In this document: in pieces, positions 6,163 to 64,000 of the stretch
Numbering within the stretch: the first letter of the stretch is position 1
Layout: the number at the start of each line of letters is the position of its first letter
NCBI RefSeq assembly: GCF_004295795.1
Contig: NZ_SEBR01000010.1
Coordinates: 90,720-154,719, forward strand
Reading direction: 5' to 3'
DNA: 64,000 nt
Source of the DNA: Flavobacterium sp.
GTDB lineage: Bacteria; Bacteroidota; Bacteroidia; Flavobacteriales; Flavobacteriaceae
Position numbers and translations under genes: made by a program
Notes under the pieces: model-generated
Database searches by the model: none
What the model saw: only the letters and a program-made list of their open reading frames with translations
What the model was told of the DNA's origin: nothing

Positions 6163-7045
6163 CCCTGTCTTATTAAAGGAAACTGTCGACGGACTTGACA
6201 TAAAGCCCGACGGAGTTTACGTGGACGTAACCTTCGGAGGCGGCGGACACTCAAAAGAAATCCTCAAACGCCTTGGGCCAAAAGGGAAATTGCTCGCATT
6301 CGACCAAGACACGGACGCTTTGGAAAACGCGATAGACGACGAAAGATTCACGCTCATAAACGAGAACTTCCGTTTCATAAAACGCTTCCTGAGATTTCAC
6401 AACGTTCGCGAAGTCGATGGGATTTTGGGCGATTTTGGCGTTTCATCCCACCAATTCGACGTTCCGGCGAGAGGTTTTTCGACAAGATTCGAAGGCGTGC
6501 TCGACATGCGCATGAACCAGAAAGACGAACTCGACGCTTTCAAAGTCGTGAACTATTACGACGATGCAAACCTGAGACGCGTTTTTCTCGATTACGGTGA
6601 ACTCAAGAACGCTCCGGCGCTTTCGAGGACGATCATCGAAGCCCGCGAAGAATCGCTCATCCGCGATACCGAAAGACTAAAGAAAATATTACACCGCTTT
6701 TTGCCCGCACACAAAAGCAATAAAATTCTGGCTCAGATCTATCAGGCGATCCGGATAGAAGTGAACCACGAAATGGATGCGCTCCGGGAATTTCTCGAGC
6801 AAACCGTCGAAGTCCTGAAACCCGGTGGACGTTTGAGCGTGATTTCGTATCACTCGCTCGAAGACCGCCTGGTGAAGCGCTTTGTCAAGAACGGGATGTT
6901 CGAAGGCGAGCCGGAACGCGACATGTTCGGGAATTTTTCGGTACCGATGAAAACCGTCGGGAAACTGATCGTTCCAACGGATGCAGAAATAAAAGAGAAC
7001 AACCGTGCCCGAAGCGCCAAATTGAGAATAGCCGAAAAGATCTAG
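6137..7045 (+). CDS. rsmH: 16S rRNA (cytosine1402-N4)-methyltransferase
   Basis: MEYHNPVLLKETVDGL, VDVTFGGGGHS, FGVSSHQFD; directly after mraZ. Confidence 0.95.
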   Translation: MMATMEYHNPVLLKETVDGLDIKPDGVYVDVTFGGGGHSKEILKRLGPKGKLLAFDQDTDALENAIDDERFTLINENFRFIKRFLRFHNVREVDGILGDFGVSSHQFDVPARGFSTRFEGVLDMRMNQKDELDAFKVVNYYDDANLRRVFLDYGELKNAPALSRTIIEAREESLIRDTERLKKILHRFLPAHKSNKILAQIYQAIRIEVNHEMDALREFLEQTVEVLKPGGRLSVISYHSLEDRLVKRFVKNGMFEGEPERDMFGNFSVPMKTVGKLIVPTDAEIKENNRARSAKLRIAEKI

Positions 7046-51814: not shown

Positions 51815-52084
51815 TTTGTTTTAGTGGTTGTTTTTGTAAAGGTACGGGGATTTTTTTGAAGCTGGTTCCGGCTTCCTGGCACTAGCTTTCTTTAAAAAAC
51901 CAGTTTTTCTAAAGGCTGCAACGAGCTTCCTTCGGTCGCTGTCGCAACCTAAGAAAAATTTGGTTTTTTCTGCAAAAGGCTAGTTTGCCCGCATCCGGGC
52001 TATGGATTGTCGTAAGACGATCCTTTTTTCTTTTAAGAAATTCTTTTTTTTCGGAAACTTCTTTTTCCTCTCGAGACGTGATAA

Positions 52085-52440
52085 AAATAAGCTTCGCTTA
52101 TTTTAGGTTTTTCGGCAGCTGCGCTGCCGCAGGCTTCGATTTTCTTTCGTCGCCTGTCCGGCGGGGAGTTCTTTTGTCTGGCAACAAAAGAACCAAAAAT
52201 GCCCAGCGGCAGACCGTTTGTGGCGACCTGACAGCCTTGAAAATTCGGAAATAAAAAAAACTCGCGGAGAATGCTTTTTAACCGGAAACTCTTATTGGCT
52301 CAGACAGTTTTTCATTTCACGAATTTTCAAGACGTCAGGTGCCCGCCAAAACGCTAATGCCGCAACTAATCGGAAAGTGTCTATTGACATTTTTCCTCCG
52401 CTGCCGCTTTGGAAAAATGTGTCTCCGAAACACCTTTTTT
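52085..52440 (+). repeat. Dispersed hairpin repeat, copy 1
   Basis: GGCAGCTGCGCTGCC, TCGTCGCCTGTCCGGCGGGG, arms ACCTGACAGCCTTGAAAATTCGGAAAT (52226-52252) / ATTTCACGAATTTTCAAGACGTCAGGT (52314-52340), then GCCCGCCAAAACG. Confidence 0.85.
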
Positions 52441-52557
52441 CCAATCACCAATATCATTTCCATAACGTCGTCGTCGGAAACTTCTGGCTTCGAAAACCCG
52501 CGTTCCAGAACGTCAGAAAACCTTTCGAAAGTCCGTTGGAAGCCACATTTTCCTAGG

Positions 52558-52586
52558 ACCTAACAAATCTTGGAGATTTGTTAGGT
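52558..52586. repeat. Perfect 13-bp palindrome
   Basis: ACCTAACAAATCT-tgg-AGATTTGTTAGGT. Confidence 0.9.
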
Positions 52587-52789
52587 CTGGCCGAAGTTCG
52601 GGGAAAAAACCGAGAGTTGGTTACAGATTTTCTGTAGAAAATGTTAAATGTATTCAGGCCGAATAGTTGTTTTGTGCTGAAGTAAAATCCAAGATTCCCA
52701 ATCAAAGCCAACCGATTGTTCCGTCAAAGACACACCCGTTTTTCGCTACGGAGACAAACGAGAGGTTCTCGAAACCGAAACTTTCCTGC

Positions 52790-53125
52790 AGAGACAATTT
52801 TTAGCGCAGCGAAGCAAGCTAAAAAGCAAATAAACGCTTCCGATTAGTCCGCGGCCTAAGCACAAAACGCGGGCACCTGACGTCCCAAAAATTCGCTGAA
52901 ATGGAAACTGTTTGAGCGACCCAAAAAGTAAGTCGTTTCGGCAAAGCTTTCCCGCGAGTTTTTTCATTTCCGAATTTTTGGGGCTGTCAGGTCGCGTTTT
53001 TGGTTCAGCCGCAAGGCCTTTTTGCTACTTTTGCGGCCAGGCAAAAGTAGTCCCGCGGAAAGCGACGAACAACAACATCCGGCAGCGCAGCTGCCGCAAA
53101 CACAAAAAAAGCGCAGCTTTTTTTA
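52790..53125 (-). repeat. Dispersed hairpin repeat, copy 2 (inverted relative to copy 1)
   Basis: Arms at 52875-52902 and 52966-52992; GGCAGCGCAGCTGCC at the far end. Confidence 0.85.
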
Positions 53126-58619: not shown

Positions 58620-59300
58620 CTACAACTTGTCAATCTGGCCGCAAATATGATTTATGTGATCTAAGCCATATAGTAATGCACCTTCGTCGATTCCCATCCA
58701 TTGAAATAATTGTTTTATGAGGCCATACTGTTGTCGAGCGTATGTAGAAGCTTTAATAGAGTTTCCTGCGCTAAAACAGATAGGTTCGTGATGCGCAATT
58801 CTGTTTCGCAGGTTATTGATCTGGATTAACTGATTGAATACAAATGTTTGATTGTATTGGACTGCGGCAGTACTGGTGGGTTTGCCCGGAAAGATTTTCA
58901 GCAAGTTTTTTCCAGCCGCAGAATATTGATTGGGAGCGAACATAAATCTCCAAAATCCAAATCCAAGTTCGGCTACAAGCTTGTCATGGGTGTAGCTATG
59001 CTTTAATTTTGCAACTCCATCGTTAATGTTTTGAGCAGTTAGTCTGCATTTGTTATTGTTGAAGATTCCACCTGGAACGGCAGCGTCGCGTAGCCAATGC
59101 GAGCCAAGATTGGCTGTGTAGTGTAAGTCAATCCTGTTTCTTAATGCAATTTCAAAACAACTGATAATTGTAAAAAGTTCCTGTGATAGGCGGAGATTTA
59201 GACGATATAACGTCATAGCCTTTCTGGTATTTCCACAGGCTGTGTAATATCGGGTCATTCTGGCTGCTGACATTATATTTTCGAAGTCTTGAAATCTCAT
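58620..59300 (-). CDS. Abi_2-family abortive infection-type protein (AbiD/AbiF-like) with HEPN-type motif
   Basis: YRLNLRLSQELFTIISCFEIALRNRIDLHY; VAELGFGFWRFMF; INNLRNRIAHHEPIC (RxxxxH). Confidence 0.83.
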   Translation of the reverse strand: MRFQDFENIMSAARMTRYYTACGNTRKAMTLYRLNLRLSQELFTIISCFEIALRNRIDLHYTANLGSHWLRDAAVPGGIFNNNKCRLTAQNINDGVAKLKHSYTHDKLVAELGFGFWRFMFAPNQYSAAGKNLLKIFPGKPTSTAAVQYNQTFVFNQLIQINNLRNRIAHHEPICFSAGNSIKASTYARQQYGLIKQLFQWMGIDEGALLYGLDHINHICGQIDKL

Positions 59301-59714: not shown

Positions 59715-60390
59715 AGCCAACTTCGCTTATGTTGGTTATTTTGCAGCGGCTGCGCCGCCGTTGGCTTTTAGTTTCTTTCGTCGCCTGTCCGGCGGGGACT
59801 TCTTTTACTTCATTGATTTTTATTGTTTTTTAAAGGATTCAGTGAACCTCGTTCCTCGGTTTGTCTGGTAACAAAAGAAGCAAAAATGCCTTGCGACACA
59901 CCGTTTTGGCGACCTGACAGCCTTGCAAATTCGGAAATTAAAGGAACTCGCGGGAACCTTCTTTCGAAATGACTTTCTCTTTAGGCCGCTCAAACAGCCT
60001 TTAATTTCGCGAATTTGCAAGGCGTCAGGTGCCCGCCAAAACGATGATGCCGCGGACTAATTGGAACTTTTTTTACTGATTTTTGGCTTGCGCGCTGTGC
60101 CAAAAATGGGCTCGCCTGGGGAGTTTTGGTTTTTACAGGGAGATTTTTTTTCACGAAGTGCTGCACGCGCCGGAAACTTTCGTCGAAACTGTTGTGTTTC
60201 GGTTCTCTCAAATAGCCTTTATTTTACTATGCAAGTTCCGTCCGTTCGCGTTTGTCGGGTCGCAGATTGCCAAGGCGTTAGGTATCAGCCAAAACGTTGA
60301 TGCCGAGGACTAATTGGATATTTTTATTGATCTTTGGCTTGCGCGCTGCGACAAAAATGGGCTCGCTCGGGGAGTCTTGGTTCTTATGGA
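59715..60390 (+). repeat. Dispersed hairpin repeat, copy 3 plus a partial tandem copy
   Basis: GCAGCGGCTGCGCCGCC, TCGTCGCCTGTCCGGCGGGG, arms ACCTGACAGCCTTGCAAATTCGGAAAT (59912-59938) / ATTTCGCGAATTTGCAAGGCGTCAGGT (60004-60030); right half repeats from about 60240. Confidence 0.85.
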
Positions 60391-60474: not shown

Positions 60475-61026
60475 TTACCTTATCTGTTTAAGTATGGTTA
60501 ACAAATCTGGAATCTTATTATTTTGGCTCTCAGTCCAAAAGTAATGGGAATTATCGATGCTTCCGTTATCCTTCAAAAATATAGATATGCGTTTAGAGTT
60601 TTGCCCGATATGAAAACTAAACCGAATTTCTTTCGTATTGAAAATATACGTAGTTGACTGTTTCTTTTCTGTTTTGTCGTTAAGGTTAGGGACAACGTAG
60701 GAGTCTAAGAAAGTTATGAATTCATCGATCTCGTTTAGGTCAATCCAAGACGATTTAAAATATGGTTTATTTCCTTCGTTGACTGTCATATCCATTTGCA
60801 AAGCCTTGATTTTTAAGTTAGACTTCAGATTAGTTGCCTCGATAGGGAAAAATGAGACAACTTCTCCAATTCCAGAAGTAAGTTGGGCCTTTACACTCCA
60901 GTCTCTATTGACTTGGATAAACTCTGCATTGTCAATAAATTTTCGGGTGTTCGAGTTGGAGTTTGTTTCCTGAGCATAGTTGGCCAAGGAAAACATAATC
61001 AGAAATATTTGAATTAGTGATTTCAT
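60475..61026 (-). CDS. Hypothetical secreted protein
   Basis: Signal peptide MKSLIQIFLIMFSLANYAQ. Confidence 0.6.
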   Translation of the reverse strand: MKSLIQIFLIMFSLANYAQETNSNSNTRKFIDNAEFIQVNRDWSVKAQLTSGIGEVVSFFPIEATNLKSNLKIKALQMDMTVNEGNKPYFKSSWIDLNEIDEFITFLDSYVVPNLNDKTEKKQSTTYIFNTKEIRFSFHIGQNSKRISIFLKDNGSIDNSHYFWTESQNNKIPDLLTILKQIR

Positions 61027-61218
61027 AATGAGTTTGACTGAATTTGTAATCGAAAATAAAATAAGTTGGAAAATAAAAATGACCACACTTATCTCGCAAA
61101 AATAAAAGTCTTTCCATTAGAAATTTAAGGCTTTCCGTTGGCGACGTTTTAGCTACCTCCATAAGTATCAATAGCACAAGAGCCAAATACCTATGTTTTT
61201 ACTGAGTGAGGCACTTAA

Positions 61219-62116
61219 CTATTTCTGAAGATACTCTTCCAAATCCAAAATCAATTTATTCTTCTGAACGTGGAATAATGAGACTTTTTTCGACCAAAAG
61301 CCTTCATAAGCAATTATGTCTTGACCAAGCATTTTTACACTATAAAGCTCAGAAGATGGCCAAGTTGACTCCAATTTAAATTTTGAAAAGTTGCACTTCG
61401 GATAATATTCAAAATTGGATGTCTGTTGTGTTTCTATGACTTGAATAGAATCTCTAGATGTTATTACTGAGAGTAGATCATGCTTCATAACATTGAATTG
61501 CACAATTCTTTTTAGCGTTATGATTTCGATAGGCTTTCGGTTTTCCCACTTGTAGATATGATAAACACTATCTTGAAAAAAGTAGCCAAACATCCTGGAT
61601 CCTTTCAATTCTTGAACTTCATCTGGTCGCTCAATTTTACGATTCAAAAGAAGTCTAACTAATTTGGATGGTTTGGACGTGTACCACTTTTCGAAATCAT
61701 CTTTCTTTGTTTTTAAGTACTTAAAATTTTTTACTGAAATTTCAATTAAACTCAATGTTTTGGCAATGTCATGGTGTTCTATATCGATGATAAAGGTCAA
61801 GCCTTTGCGCTCTGTTTGGGTCTGTTGGTTAAATACTCTTATTTCGCTAGAATGCCTATTTCTAAGCCAAATATATATTGGCTCGTTGTACTTCAATTCT
61901 TTTAATAATGACTCTGCATATTTGGCAATAATTAGGTTTGTGTTAATCTTCTGTGTAATATGGAGTGAACGATAAAAGATTGACGTTGCCATATGTCTTT
62001 TCGATTAGAACATCTTTATGCGCAAATGAATGCACACACAGAGAACTTAATAATGATAGAAAGATTATTAATCGATTTATTATTCTAGAGGATGTGGGAG
62101 CTATGGTGTTGTACAT
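61219..62116 (-). pseudogene. Secreted protein gene split by a probable frameshift
   Basis: 61943..62155 frame (signal peptide ... TYGNVNLLSFTPYYTED*) and 61219..61992 frame (...INTNLIIAKYAESLLKELKYNEPIY...) join near 61948 by a one-base shift. Confidence 0.6.
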
Positions 62117-62307: not shown

Positions 62308-62707
62308 TTACTTTATCACACTCTTCAAAAGAGAACTAAGCTCCTTCTCAGCAGCCAATAACCGCTCATAAAGCTTCTTATTCTCCTCAACCAACTCCAT
62401 CTATCTTATCCAAAGGATTGAAAGTACAGTGGTGATTGCCAACTTGACCTGAACTGTGATCGTAGAAGTTATTGAAGTAATTGAACACACTTTCGTCGCT
62501 AAAATTCTTTAATGTTTCCAAACTAACGCCAAGCGCCTCCGCGACATCCTTCAAACGCTTCTCATCAATCTCCTCACTATTCTCCAAATTCGAGATCGAT
62601 TGCTGGCTCATGCCCAAAGCCTGAGCCAACGCTTCCTGTTTCATGCCGCGCAGTTCGCGGATGCGGGAAATTTTACGGCCGATGTGGGATTTAGAAGGCG
62701 TTTCCAT
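62308..62707 (-). pseudogene. XRE-family HTH regulator, frameshifted before its coiled-coil tail
   Basis: METPSKSHIGRKISRIRELRGMKQEALAQ... CTFNPLDKI, then a +1 shift near 62400 restores MELVEENKKLYERLLAAEKELSSLLKSVIK*, homologous to the 27246..27662 tail. Confidence 0.75.
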
Positions 62708-62984: not shown

Positions 62985-63200
62985 CAAACTTCAATCGCAA
63001 CTCAAAAGGTCAGGCGTGGGAGAGAGAAGTGTTCGTGAAAAAAAAAACCAATGTAAAGACAAAAAATTTCCAAGCGGACACATTTTTGAAGCAGCGCGCA
63101 AGCCAAAAATCAATAAACACTTTCCAATTAGTCGCGGCATCAGCGTTTTGGCGGGCACCTGACGTCTTGGAAATTCCCGCAAATGGAAGCTGTTTGAGCC
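62985..63200 (-). repeat. Dispersed hairpin repeat, right-half copy (inverted)
   Basis: CCAATTAGTCGCGGCATCAGCGTTTTGGCGGGCACCTGACGTCTTGGAAATTC; partner arm absent. Confidence 0.75.
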
Positions 63201-63449
63201 ACCCTAGAGCCGACATCATTGATCCGGTCACGGAAAAGCGCGTTTCCGCCGATATTAGAGACTTACAATGCAGCGGAGTATGTGAGATTAAGTAAAGCCG
63301 GACTAATCGTCTTAAATTGGTTAACTTGAATTGTAGTATTTAATTGGCTATTCTTGATATTTGTAATAGGTGAAATAGTGTAACCTTGTGCAGTAGAGAA
63401 ACACGTATCTGTGTGTGAGTAACGTATCAAATTTGAATCCATCAAATGC

Positions 63450-63812
63450 ATGAAAAACCATTATGAAACATTAAAGATAAAAACTGACGCGACTCAGCAA
63501 GAAATCAAAAGATCTTACCGAAAATTAGCGGTTGAATTCCATCCTGACAAAAATAACGGCGATACTTTTGCAAATGATAGGTTTATTGCGATTCAAGAGG
63601 CGTATCATGTCCTATCCAATCATCAAAAGAAAAAAATATTCGATAAGTTATATTTAATTCACCTCTGTGAAAATGAGGAAACTTTGAGTCCTGAAAAAGA
63701 AAATGTTACCATCGGTCAGGATTACTCGACTTCCCTGATAATTCTTGCCGCGCTATTAGTTCTTGTCGTAGCTTTTTTTGCAATTTACTATTGTGTTTTT
63801 AAAAGTATATGA
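63450..63812 (+). CDS. J-domain (DnaJ-like) protein with C-terminal TM segment
   Basis: N-terminal J domain with HPDK (AVEFHPDKNNGD); C-terminal LIILAALLVLVVAFFAIYYCVF. Confidence 0.87.
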   Translation: MKNHYETLKIKTDATQQEIKRSYRKLAVEFHPDKNNGDTFANDRFIAIQEAYHVLSNHQKKKIFDKLYLIHLCENEETLSPEKENVTIGQDYSTSLIILAALLVLVVAFFAIYYCVFKSI

Positions 63813-63845
63813 GAAATTAAGAAATGCCTCTTTCGCCACGAAAGT

Positions 63846-63885
63846 TGTGTGAACTTTTCAAAAATATTTTTTCTCACACACATTT
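63846..63885. repeat. Isolated copy of the 40-bp repeat abutting the IS end
   Basis: TGTGTGAACTTTTCAAAAATATTTTTTCTCACACACATTT, then GAACTGCACCC. Confidence 0.75.
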
Positions 63886-64000
63886 GAACTGCACCCAAAA
63901 AGTTAGACACAATTTTGGGGTATCCTATGGAAAGAAAAGTAAAGCACAGTTATGATTTTAAGCTCCATTGTGTCGAAGAGGTCTTAAGGGGCCGATCTGC
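63885..64000 (+). mobile_element. Left end of an IS3-family insertion sequence (truncated by window)
   Basis: TGAACTGCACCCAAAAAGTTAGACA terminus followed by a transposase OrfA start. Confidence 0.82.
63927..64000 (+). CDS. IS3-family transposase OrfA, N-terminal fragment
   Basis: ATG at 63927: MERKVKHSYDFKLHCVEEVLRGRS..., not in the ORF track because the window ends. Confidence 0.78.
   Translation, partial: MERKVKHSYDFKLHCVEEVLRGRS

Follow-up and report, generated by a model that had tools for sequence, protein, structure and literature searches.

The window analysed here, a 64,000-nt stretch of the genome of a Flavobacterium sp. (NCBI RefSeq assembly GCF_004295795.1, contig NZ_SEBR01000010.1), contains a dispersed repeat that folds into a long hairpin, called H below, and the question is what kind of sequence H belongs to. 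The reading that we favour, with a probability of roughly 0.62, is that a family of non-autonomous mobile DNA elements has these repeats as its terminal hairpins, that a subfamily of it exchanges cargo, and that the elements are acted upon in trans. The mobile-element family is poorly known and occurs in Flavobacterium-like bacteria, and no paper on these repeats was found in literature searches.

Organization of the elements in the window

The three H hairpins that an earlier note on this DNA had described are confirmed at positions 52226–52340 (+), 52875–52992 (-) and 59912–60030 (+), with the arms as quoted there, and the flanks that it quoted are conserved among the copies. H is part of a larger end, which from the outside inwards consists of segment A (about 190 bp), segment B (131 bp, with small hairpins), H and segment D. 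The second end is inverted relative to the first, and often one to four tandem M units are located between both. Most inverted elements are simple and about 1–2 kb long. Positions 52085–53125 constitute a single inverted element, the left arm of which begins near 51851, and a second element with cargo is located at 59.7–63.2 kb. The features of the two elements are as follows.

51851..52010 (-), segment A, the outer end of the first element, a Flavo-1-type hairpin; sharp edge between a T-run and GAAGCTGGTTCCGGCTTCCTGG, common to about 30 ends
52004..52023 (+), terminator-like hairpin GGATTGTCGTAAGACGATCC followed by TTTTTT, inside the arm, from the sequence
52085..52215 (+), segment B, a string of small hairpins GGCAGCTGCGCTGCC, CGCCTGTCCGGCG and TCTTTTGTCTGGCAACAAAAGA (the last at 52170–52191), recurring with A and H in other copies
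52226..52340 (+), H, left copy of the first element, from folding against shuffles and covariation
52346..52560 (+), segment D type 2, typical of simple elements, with a hairpin at about 52387–52422 (GACATTTTTCC..GGAAAAATGTGTC)
52560..52820 (+), segment M, a tandem unit with a period of about 285 bp and 1–4 copies elsewhere
52558–52586, palindrome ACCTAACAAATCTTGGAGATTTGTTAGGT of segment M
52875..52992 (-), H, right inverted copy of the first element, from folding against shuffles
53005..53123 (-), segment B, right copy of the first element, with no A copy after it
59721..59902 (+), segment B of the second, cargo-bearing element
59912..60030 (+), H, left end of the second element, from folding against shuffles
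60031..60157 (+), segment D type 1 (GATTTTTGGCTTGCGCGCTGTGCCAAAAATG..TTTTTTTTCACGA) of the second element, directly followed by the cargo
60475..61086 (-), cargo ORF of 203 aa, no family found
61219..61992 (-), cargo ORF of 257 aa, no family found
62387..62707 (-), XRE/HTH_3 regulator (METPSKSHIGRKISRIRELRGMKQEALAQALG..), the conserved cargo gene, the open frame of which reaches 62800
63032..63150 (-), segment D type 1, right copy of the second element
63157..63201 (-), H, right end of the second element, 3' half alone (truncated; the fourth copy in the window)

At 58620–59300 (-), immediately beyond the left end of the cargo element, there is a gene for an Abi_2-like protein (PADLOC PD-T4-5, 46.7 bits, AbiD). 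Past the truncated right H, at 63440–64000, a DnaJ-like ORF is found, and at the contig end a reading frame for an IS-like transposase begins.

Copies and distribution of the H hairpin

Folded as single-stranded DNA, the copies at 52226, 52875 and 59912 have energies of -21.7, -25.9 and -35.5 kcal/mol, with z-scores against dinucleotide shuffles of -3.3, -3.2 and -6.7 respectively. Collecting the copies genome-wide, as had been proposed, gave a larger finding than the three in the window, with about 48 H hairpins of 92–128 nt in three stem classes in the regions fetched from the source genome. This assembly is in 49 contigs, many of which start or stop inside H elements; assemblies are broken by the repeats, and such islands are probably under-reported.

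A covariance model built from the source-genome copies alone has matches in 29 other genomes of the genus among 300 searched, and the hairpins found in this way have a different sequence and the same architecture. The apical motif AACTCGC..GCTCAAACAG is kept across species, while the stems differ and the feet vary by species (ACCTGAC, GTCAAAT, ACCTGCT, ACCAGCC). F. agri has about 19 H hairpins with the same foot as in the source genome and a variable inner stem; the copy numbers in relatives are lower bounds. A plain DNA search in 150 relatives gave one 33-nt match and nothing else, because the stems drift, and a covariance model was therefore needed. A pattern with exact feet had no match in GTDB contigs, where the source genome was excluded and the gap bounds were probably too strict, and no DNA similar to the H elements was found in phages, plasmids or viral contigs.

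Several H hairpins and some outer ends are broken by a nested 36-nt insert, ACTMCGCAAGCTCCGTCARTTCGCGTTGCTCGGGTC, or by its ends CAGTTCGC..GCTCGGGTC. The insert is present in L044 (around 6996–7032), L053, L058, L059, L060 and L061, and at element ends in L050, L059 and L063, and pieces resembling it are present in the rpoD-rpe regions of relatives.

Covariation and base pairing

The changes in the pairing core, which had been described as compensatory from three copies, are real, as 11 of 30 pairs are changed on both sides in 35 full-length copies of the source genome (73 cells, against 19.9 in shuffles), and the signal holds in many copies from many species. In 52 matches from 29 genomes, none of which had been part of the training of the covariance model, two-sided changes are observed in 24 of the 30 pairs (242 cells, 70 in shuffles), with a covariation score of 0.432 compared to 0.131 when shuffled and at most 0.091 when slid. 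RNAalifold, run independently, gave 26 pairs, 21 of them with compensatory changes, and the H copies of F. agri have 19 two-sided pairs (90 cells, 25 in shuffles). The alignments are fitted to the model and hence lean towards structure, but the slid controls are nonetheless far lower.

G-U pairs are nearly absent from the stems, with 9 of 996 and 8 of 1230 pairs (0.7–0.9%), compared to 73 of 736 (9.9%) in 35 tRNAs from the same loci. One pair of H, for example, is found as UA 14, AU 13, GC 11 and CG 11 times and never as G-U. In A5 one column next to the bulge is often G-U, probably a register effect. H thus covaries and yet lacks the share of G-U pairs that is usual in structured RNA, indicating a DNA hairpin. 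Relative to the upstream gene H is found 27 times in one orientation and 25 times in the other, with no strand preference and few divergent sites, although this is approximate and based on simple ORF calls. The jumps between Watson-Crick pairs and the even orientation fit a DNA hairpin or copying of the arms, and fit an RNA less well. Template switching between the arms could be an alternative explanation of their complementarity.

Flavo-1 at the outer ends

The earlier note recognized no named family in the repeat. This still applies to H, as neither in the window nor in 18 relatives does any Rfam family match it, Flavo-1 included, but not to the flank, where the outer segment A appears to be a variant of Flavo-1 (RF01705). 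The best A copy inside an element reaches 33 bits with the Flavo-1 model, for which the Rfam gathering cut-off is 42, and a profile made from 20 A copies matches solo Flavo-1 copies (47–50 bits) at E-values down to 2e-28. Genome G351 contains a complete 1-kb element in the order Flavo-1, B, H, D, inverted H, inverted B and inverted Flavo-1, with Flavo-1 ends of 49.6 and 40.7 bits, one exceeding the curated cut-off.

Segment A thus appears homologous to Flavo-1, and the ends of the G351 composite are Flavo-1. Flavo-1 was rated a probable RNA (Weinberg 2010, PMC2864571) and is described as standing alone and of unknown function, whereas here it is the outer end, on both sides, of a larger inverted DNA element, the inner hairpin of which is absent from Rfam. 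Flavo-1 matches have been found in sense or antisense of transcribed regions, and many are not transcribed (PMC9723704); this absence of a strand preference fits a DNA element.

Evidence for mobility

The outer edge is sharp and identical at about 30 ends in the source genome, with unrelated flanks. In the sister species G005 there is a stand-alone unit of 168 bp, which occurs at many places with both ends unchanged, and about a dozen species together contain dozens of copies of it. At G005 locus L171 the gap between two conserved genes is 252 bp including this unit, compared to 74–87 bp in most relatives, and the 168-bp insert is absent from this position in the relatives that could be read; at the same site L188 has a gap of 248 bp that holds another sequence. 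This empty site concerns a single unit in a sister species and not a large element. No target-site duplication, as would be expected of a DDE-transposon MITE, was found at three complete large elements. The rpe-rpoD region was tried as an empty-site test for a large element and rejected, as the intergenic regions of the relatives are too diverged and several contain a lone Flavo-1. In this region (L106–L133) the rpoD terminator is common to the relatives, and a lone Flavo-1-like hairpin is present in several and in others not, indicating a hot spot for repeats.

Cargo genes and the cargo junction

Four elements of the source genome have cargo between the ends. The element in C6 encodes an 888-aa DNA methyltransferase (MTase_II) and, next to it, a 332-aa ORF that weakly resembles HNH/Cas9, as well as a hypothetical protein and an XRE regulator, and the one in C9, the left end of which is off the contig, encodes a SIR2-like PDC-S25 protein (562 bits) and XRE. 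C32 contains ParDE and small ORFs, and in the window element at 59.7–63.2 kb XRE accompanies the two unknown ORFs. An 8.4-kb element of F. agri (L246) surrounds Fic, XRE, an AAA_15 ATPase and PDC-S06 (842 bits), with inverted arms that are 75% identical over 323 bp. At L249 of the same species H adjoins XRE, AbiJ_NTD4/PDC-S32 and a NERD-UvrD protein, with no second H found there, and at L247 a B hairpin adjoins XRE and is followed by a run of N where H would begin. The window and L246 elements adjoin homologous host genes with 53% identity over 337 aa, but orthology is not proved.

The cargo-bearing ends have D type 1 in common, and in the source genome they end at ..TTTTCACGA with the cargo directly after. 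This junction is the same in the TA, R-M and SIR2 elements of the source genome, and the D hairpin is the same in F. agri; the exception is TA-R, which carries D type 2. XRE is present in three source-genome elements and at two or three F. agri sites and accompanies the cargo in most cases. The other XRE copies of the source genome have no A, B, H, D or M within 1.5 kb, and most of 80 XRE loci searched elsewhere are without H. Direct pairs of H in F. agri were considered as integron-like cassettes and rejected, since mostly ordinary host genes are found between them. The sample is small, with four elements in the source genome and one complete in F. agri. A few elements carry anti-phage genes between hairpin ends, and they are therefore likely a vehicle for moving bacterial immunity genes.

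Nature of the elements

That the hairpin is under selection, as suggested earlier, is supported, and of the three options then given (mobile-element terminus, structured RNA or nucleoid site) the first has the best support, because of the sharp ends, the dispersal, the empty site and the inverted pairs that bound cargo. It is quite unlikely that H is instead a structured RNA (an sRNA, a 3'-UTR element or a bidirectional terminator) that has been dispersed because it is useful, with Flavo-1 being an RNA as Rfam lists it. The strong covariation would be expected of such a molecule, Flavo-1 is classed as an sRNA by Rfam and was judged a probable RNA (PMC2864571), and the terminator T-run of a gene often precedes the outer edges; but the tRNAs of the same loci have the G-U pairs that H lacks, the orientation to adjoining genes is not preferred, Flavo-1 has no strand preference with regard to transcripts (PMC9723704), and elements are gained and lost at a site. 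Somewhat less improbable, though we still doubt it, is that the elements are old repeats, immobile as units, and that the cargo has been moved by homologous recombination between copies, for example after natural transformation. Long similar ends at many places might serve as recombination arms, and elements with different cargo are found beside a homologous host gene in the window and in F. agri, but the sharp uniform edges and the 168-bp insertion require a joining mechanism beyond homology.

If the repeats are terminal hairpins of mobile elements, the basic unit of about 170–200 bp (B and H) would spread alone in many Flavobacterium species. Inverted pairs of units are present in the source genome, in G351 and at a single locus of F. 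agri, with Flavo-1-type caps in the source genome and G351, and the subfamily marked by D type 1 and the ..TTTTCACGA junction would carry cargo that can be exchanged, for the most part defence genes accompanied by an XRE regulator. One DNA strand may form the H and Flavo-1 hairpins, as could happen on the template of the lagging strand or through cruciform extrusion, and a recombinase provided in trans might recognize the shape of the stem, the unpaired bases and the conserved AACTCGC..GCTCAAACAG tip, and then cut and join. With such recognition of structure, pairing is proposed to stay under selection while the sequence of the stem drifts. Single-strand recognition, action in trans and exchange of cargo are all three inferred; no transposase or recombinase was found inside any element read, and the mobilizing enzyme has not been shown. 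Like MITEs and cargo transposons without a transposase, the elements are non-autonomous and dispersed, with inverted ends and passenger genes, but their ends are arrays of covarying hairpins, no target-site duplication was found and no parent transposon is known.

H is a new family of hairpins, and its covariation on DNA is unusually clear. The mobile-element reading also gives a testable DNA-level account of Flavo-1, a family in Rfam without a known function. Flavobacterium might collect and swap anti-phage systems by means of inverted hairpin ends, a fixed cargo junction and a marker regulator gene, and new defence genes could be sought by their position relative to these three, as with the two unknown cargo ORFs of the window.

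Candidate enzymes

The link to a TnpA_REP/IS200 relative that the earlier note suggested was tested and not found, as none of 32 Y1_Tnp loci has H within 1.5 kb. It is very unlikely that a TnpA_REP transposase (RAYT, Y1 HUH) moves the units as sequences of the REP/BIME/REPIN type. Many short intergenic hairpins, mosaics of hairpins and inverted pairs without genes of their own do recall BIMEs, the source genome has two Y1_Tnp genes, and RAYT subclass 2.6 of Bacteroidetes is flanked by atypical secondary structures (PMC6006769). Against this, H is 92–128 nt long, some elements contain genes, no RAYT is linked, 6 of 19 H-bearing genomes have no Y1_Tnp match, BLAST of the Y1_Tnp loci gave just one trivial 23-nt match, and the Y1 gene of the source genome in L069 is flanked by a different palindrome, AACCTGCAAGGTTTTGAAAACCTTGCAGGTT. 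RAYT as the mobilizer is thus unsupported.

A solitary XerA/IntI-like tyrosine recombinase of 350–370 aa, acting on H and Flavo-1 as attC-like sites, is only a lead, and an improbable one; genomes lacking H were left out of the comparison. IntI works on a folded single strand, and as in attC the hairpins are long and imperfect, with structure conserved over sequence, extra unpaired bases on one arm of the stem, and cargo bounded by the sites. Of 17 H-bearing genomes 14 contain a match of about 98–113 bits, which exceeds the Xer-like level. The protein is similar to XerA and to the IntI of V. cholerae (2a3v), and a Flavo-1 hairpin is located directly upstream of the gene in 4 of 8 loci, being of the A type in the source genome. 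However, at that level the recombinase is absent from the H-bearing genomes G017, G031 and G036, the last a single-contig genome, there is no H near the gene, and a different hairpin, conserved and belonging to the gene itself, follows directly downstream. The feet are conserved in attC, whereas those of H are not the part conserved across species and lack conserved R''/R' boxes RYYYAAC / GTTRRRY, and the H ends are inverted and not direct. None of the 17 H-bearing genomes has an integron integrase above the TIGR02249 cut-off, IntI-like relatives below it being present in 14, and on this and the unconserved feet a true integron was rejected. It is likewise doubtful that the elements are a new class of defence-carrying elements with single-strand DNA hairpins (H and Flavo-1) as ends, recombined in trans by the chromosomal XerA/IntI-like recombinase; if they were, Flavo-1, a putative RNA in Rfam for over ten years, would be the recombination site of that system.

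In L069 of the source genome (G000:C3) the Y1_Tnp (RAYT-like) gene at 1420–2055 has the palindromes AACCTGCAAGGTTT..AAAACCTTGCAGGTT on both sides, and these could plausibly be its own REP pair. The recombinase of 370 aa is encoded at L365 1198–2313 (region C33:75358–76164). The Flavo-1 hairpins upstream of the recombinase are at L360 2340–2433, L365 1004–1145, L363 1108–1181 and L359 2373–2516, two of them above the Rfam cut-off. In L358–L365 the site directly 3' of the recombinase stop (in L362, for example, the reverse complement of 766–1215) is a conserved hairpin with a stem that varies by species, an inner ACCC..GGGT and the 3' end TATATAC.AGTT. It is followed by small variable ORFs, an arrangement that looks integron-like.
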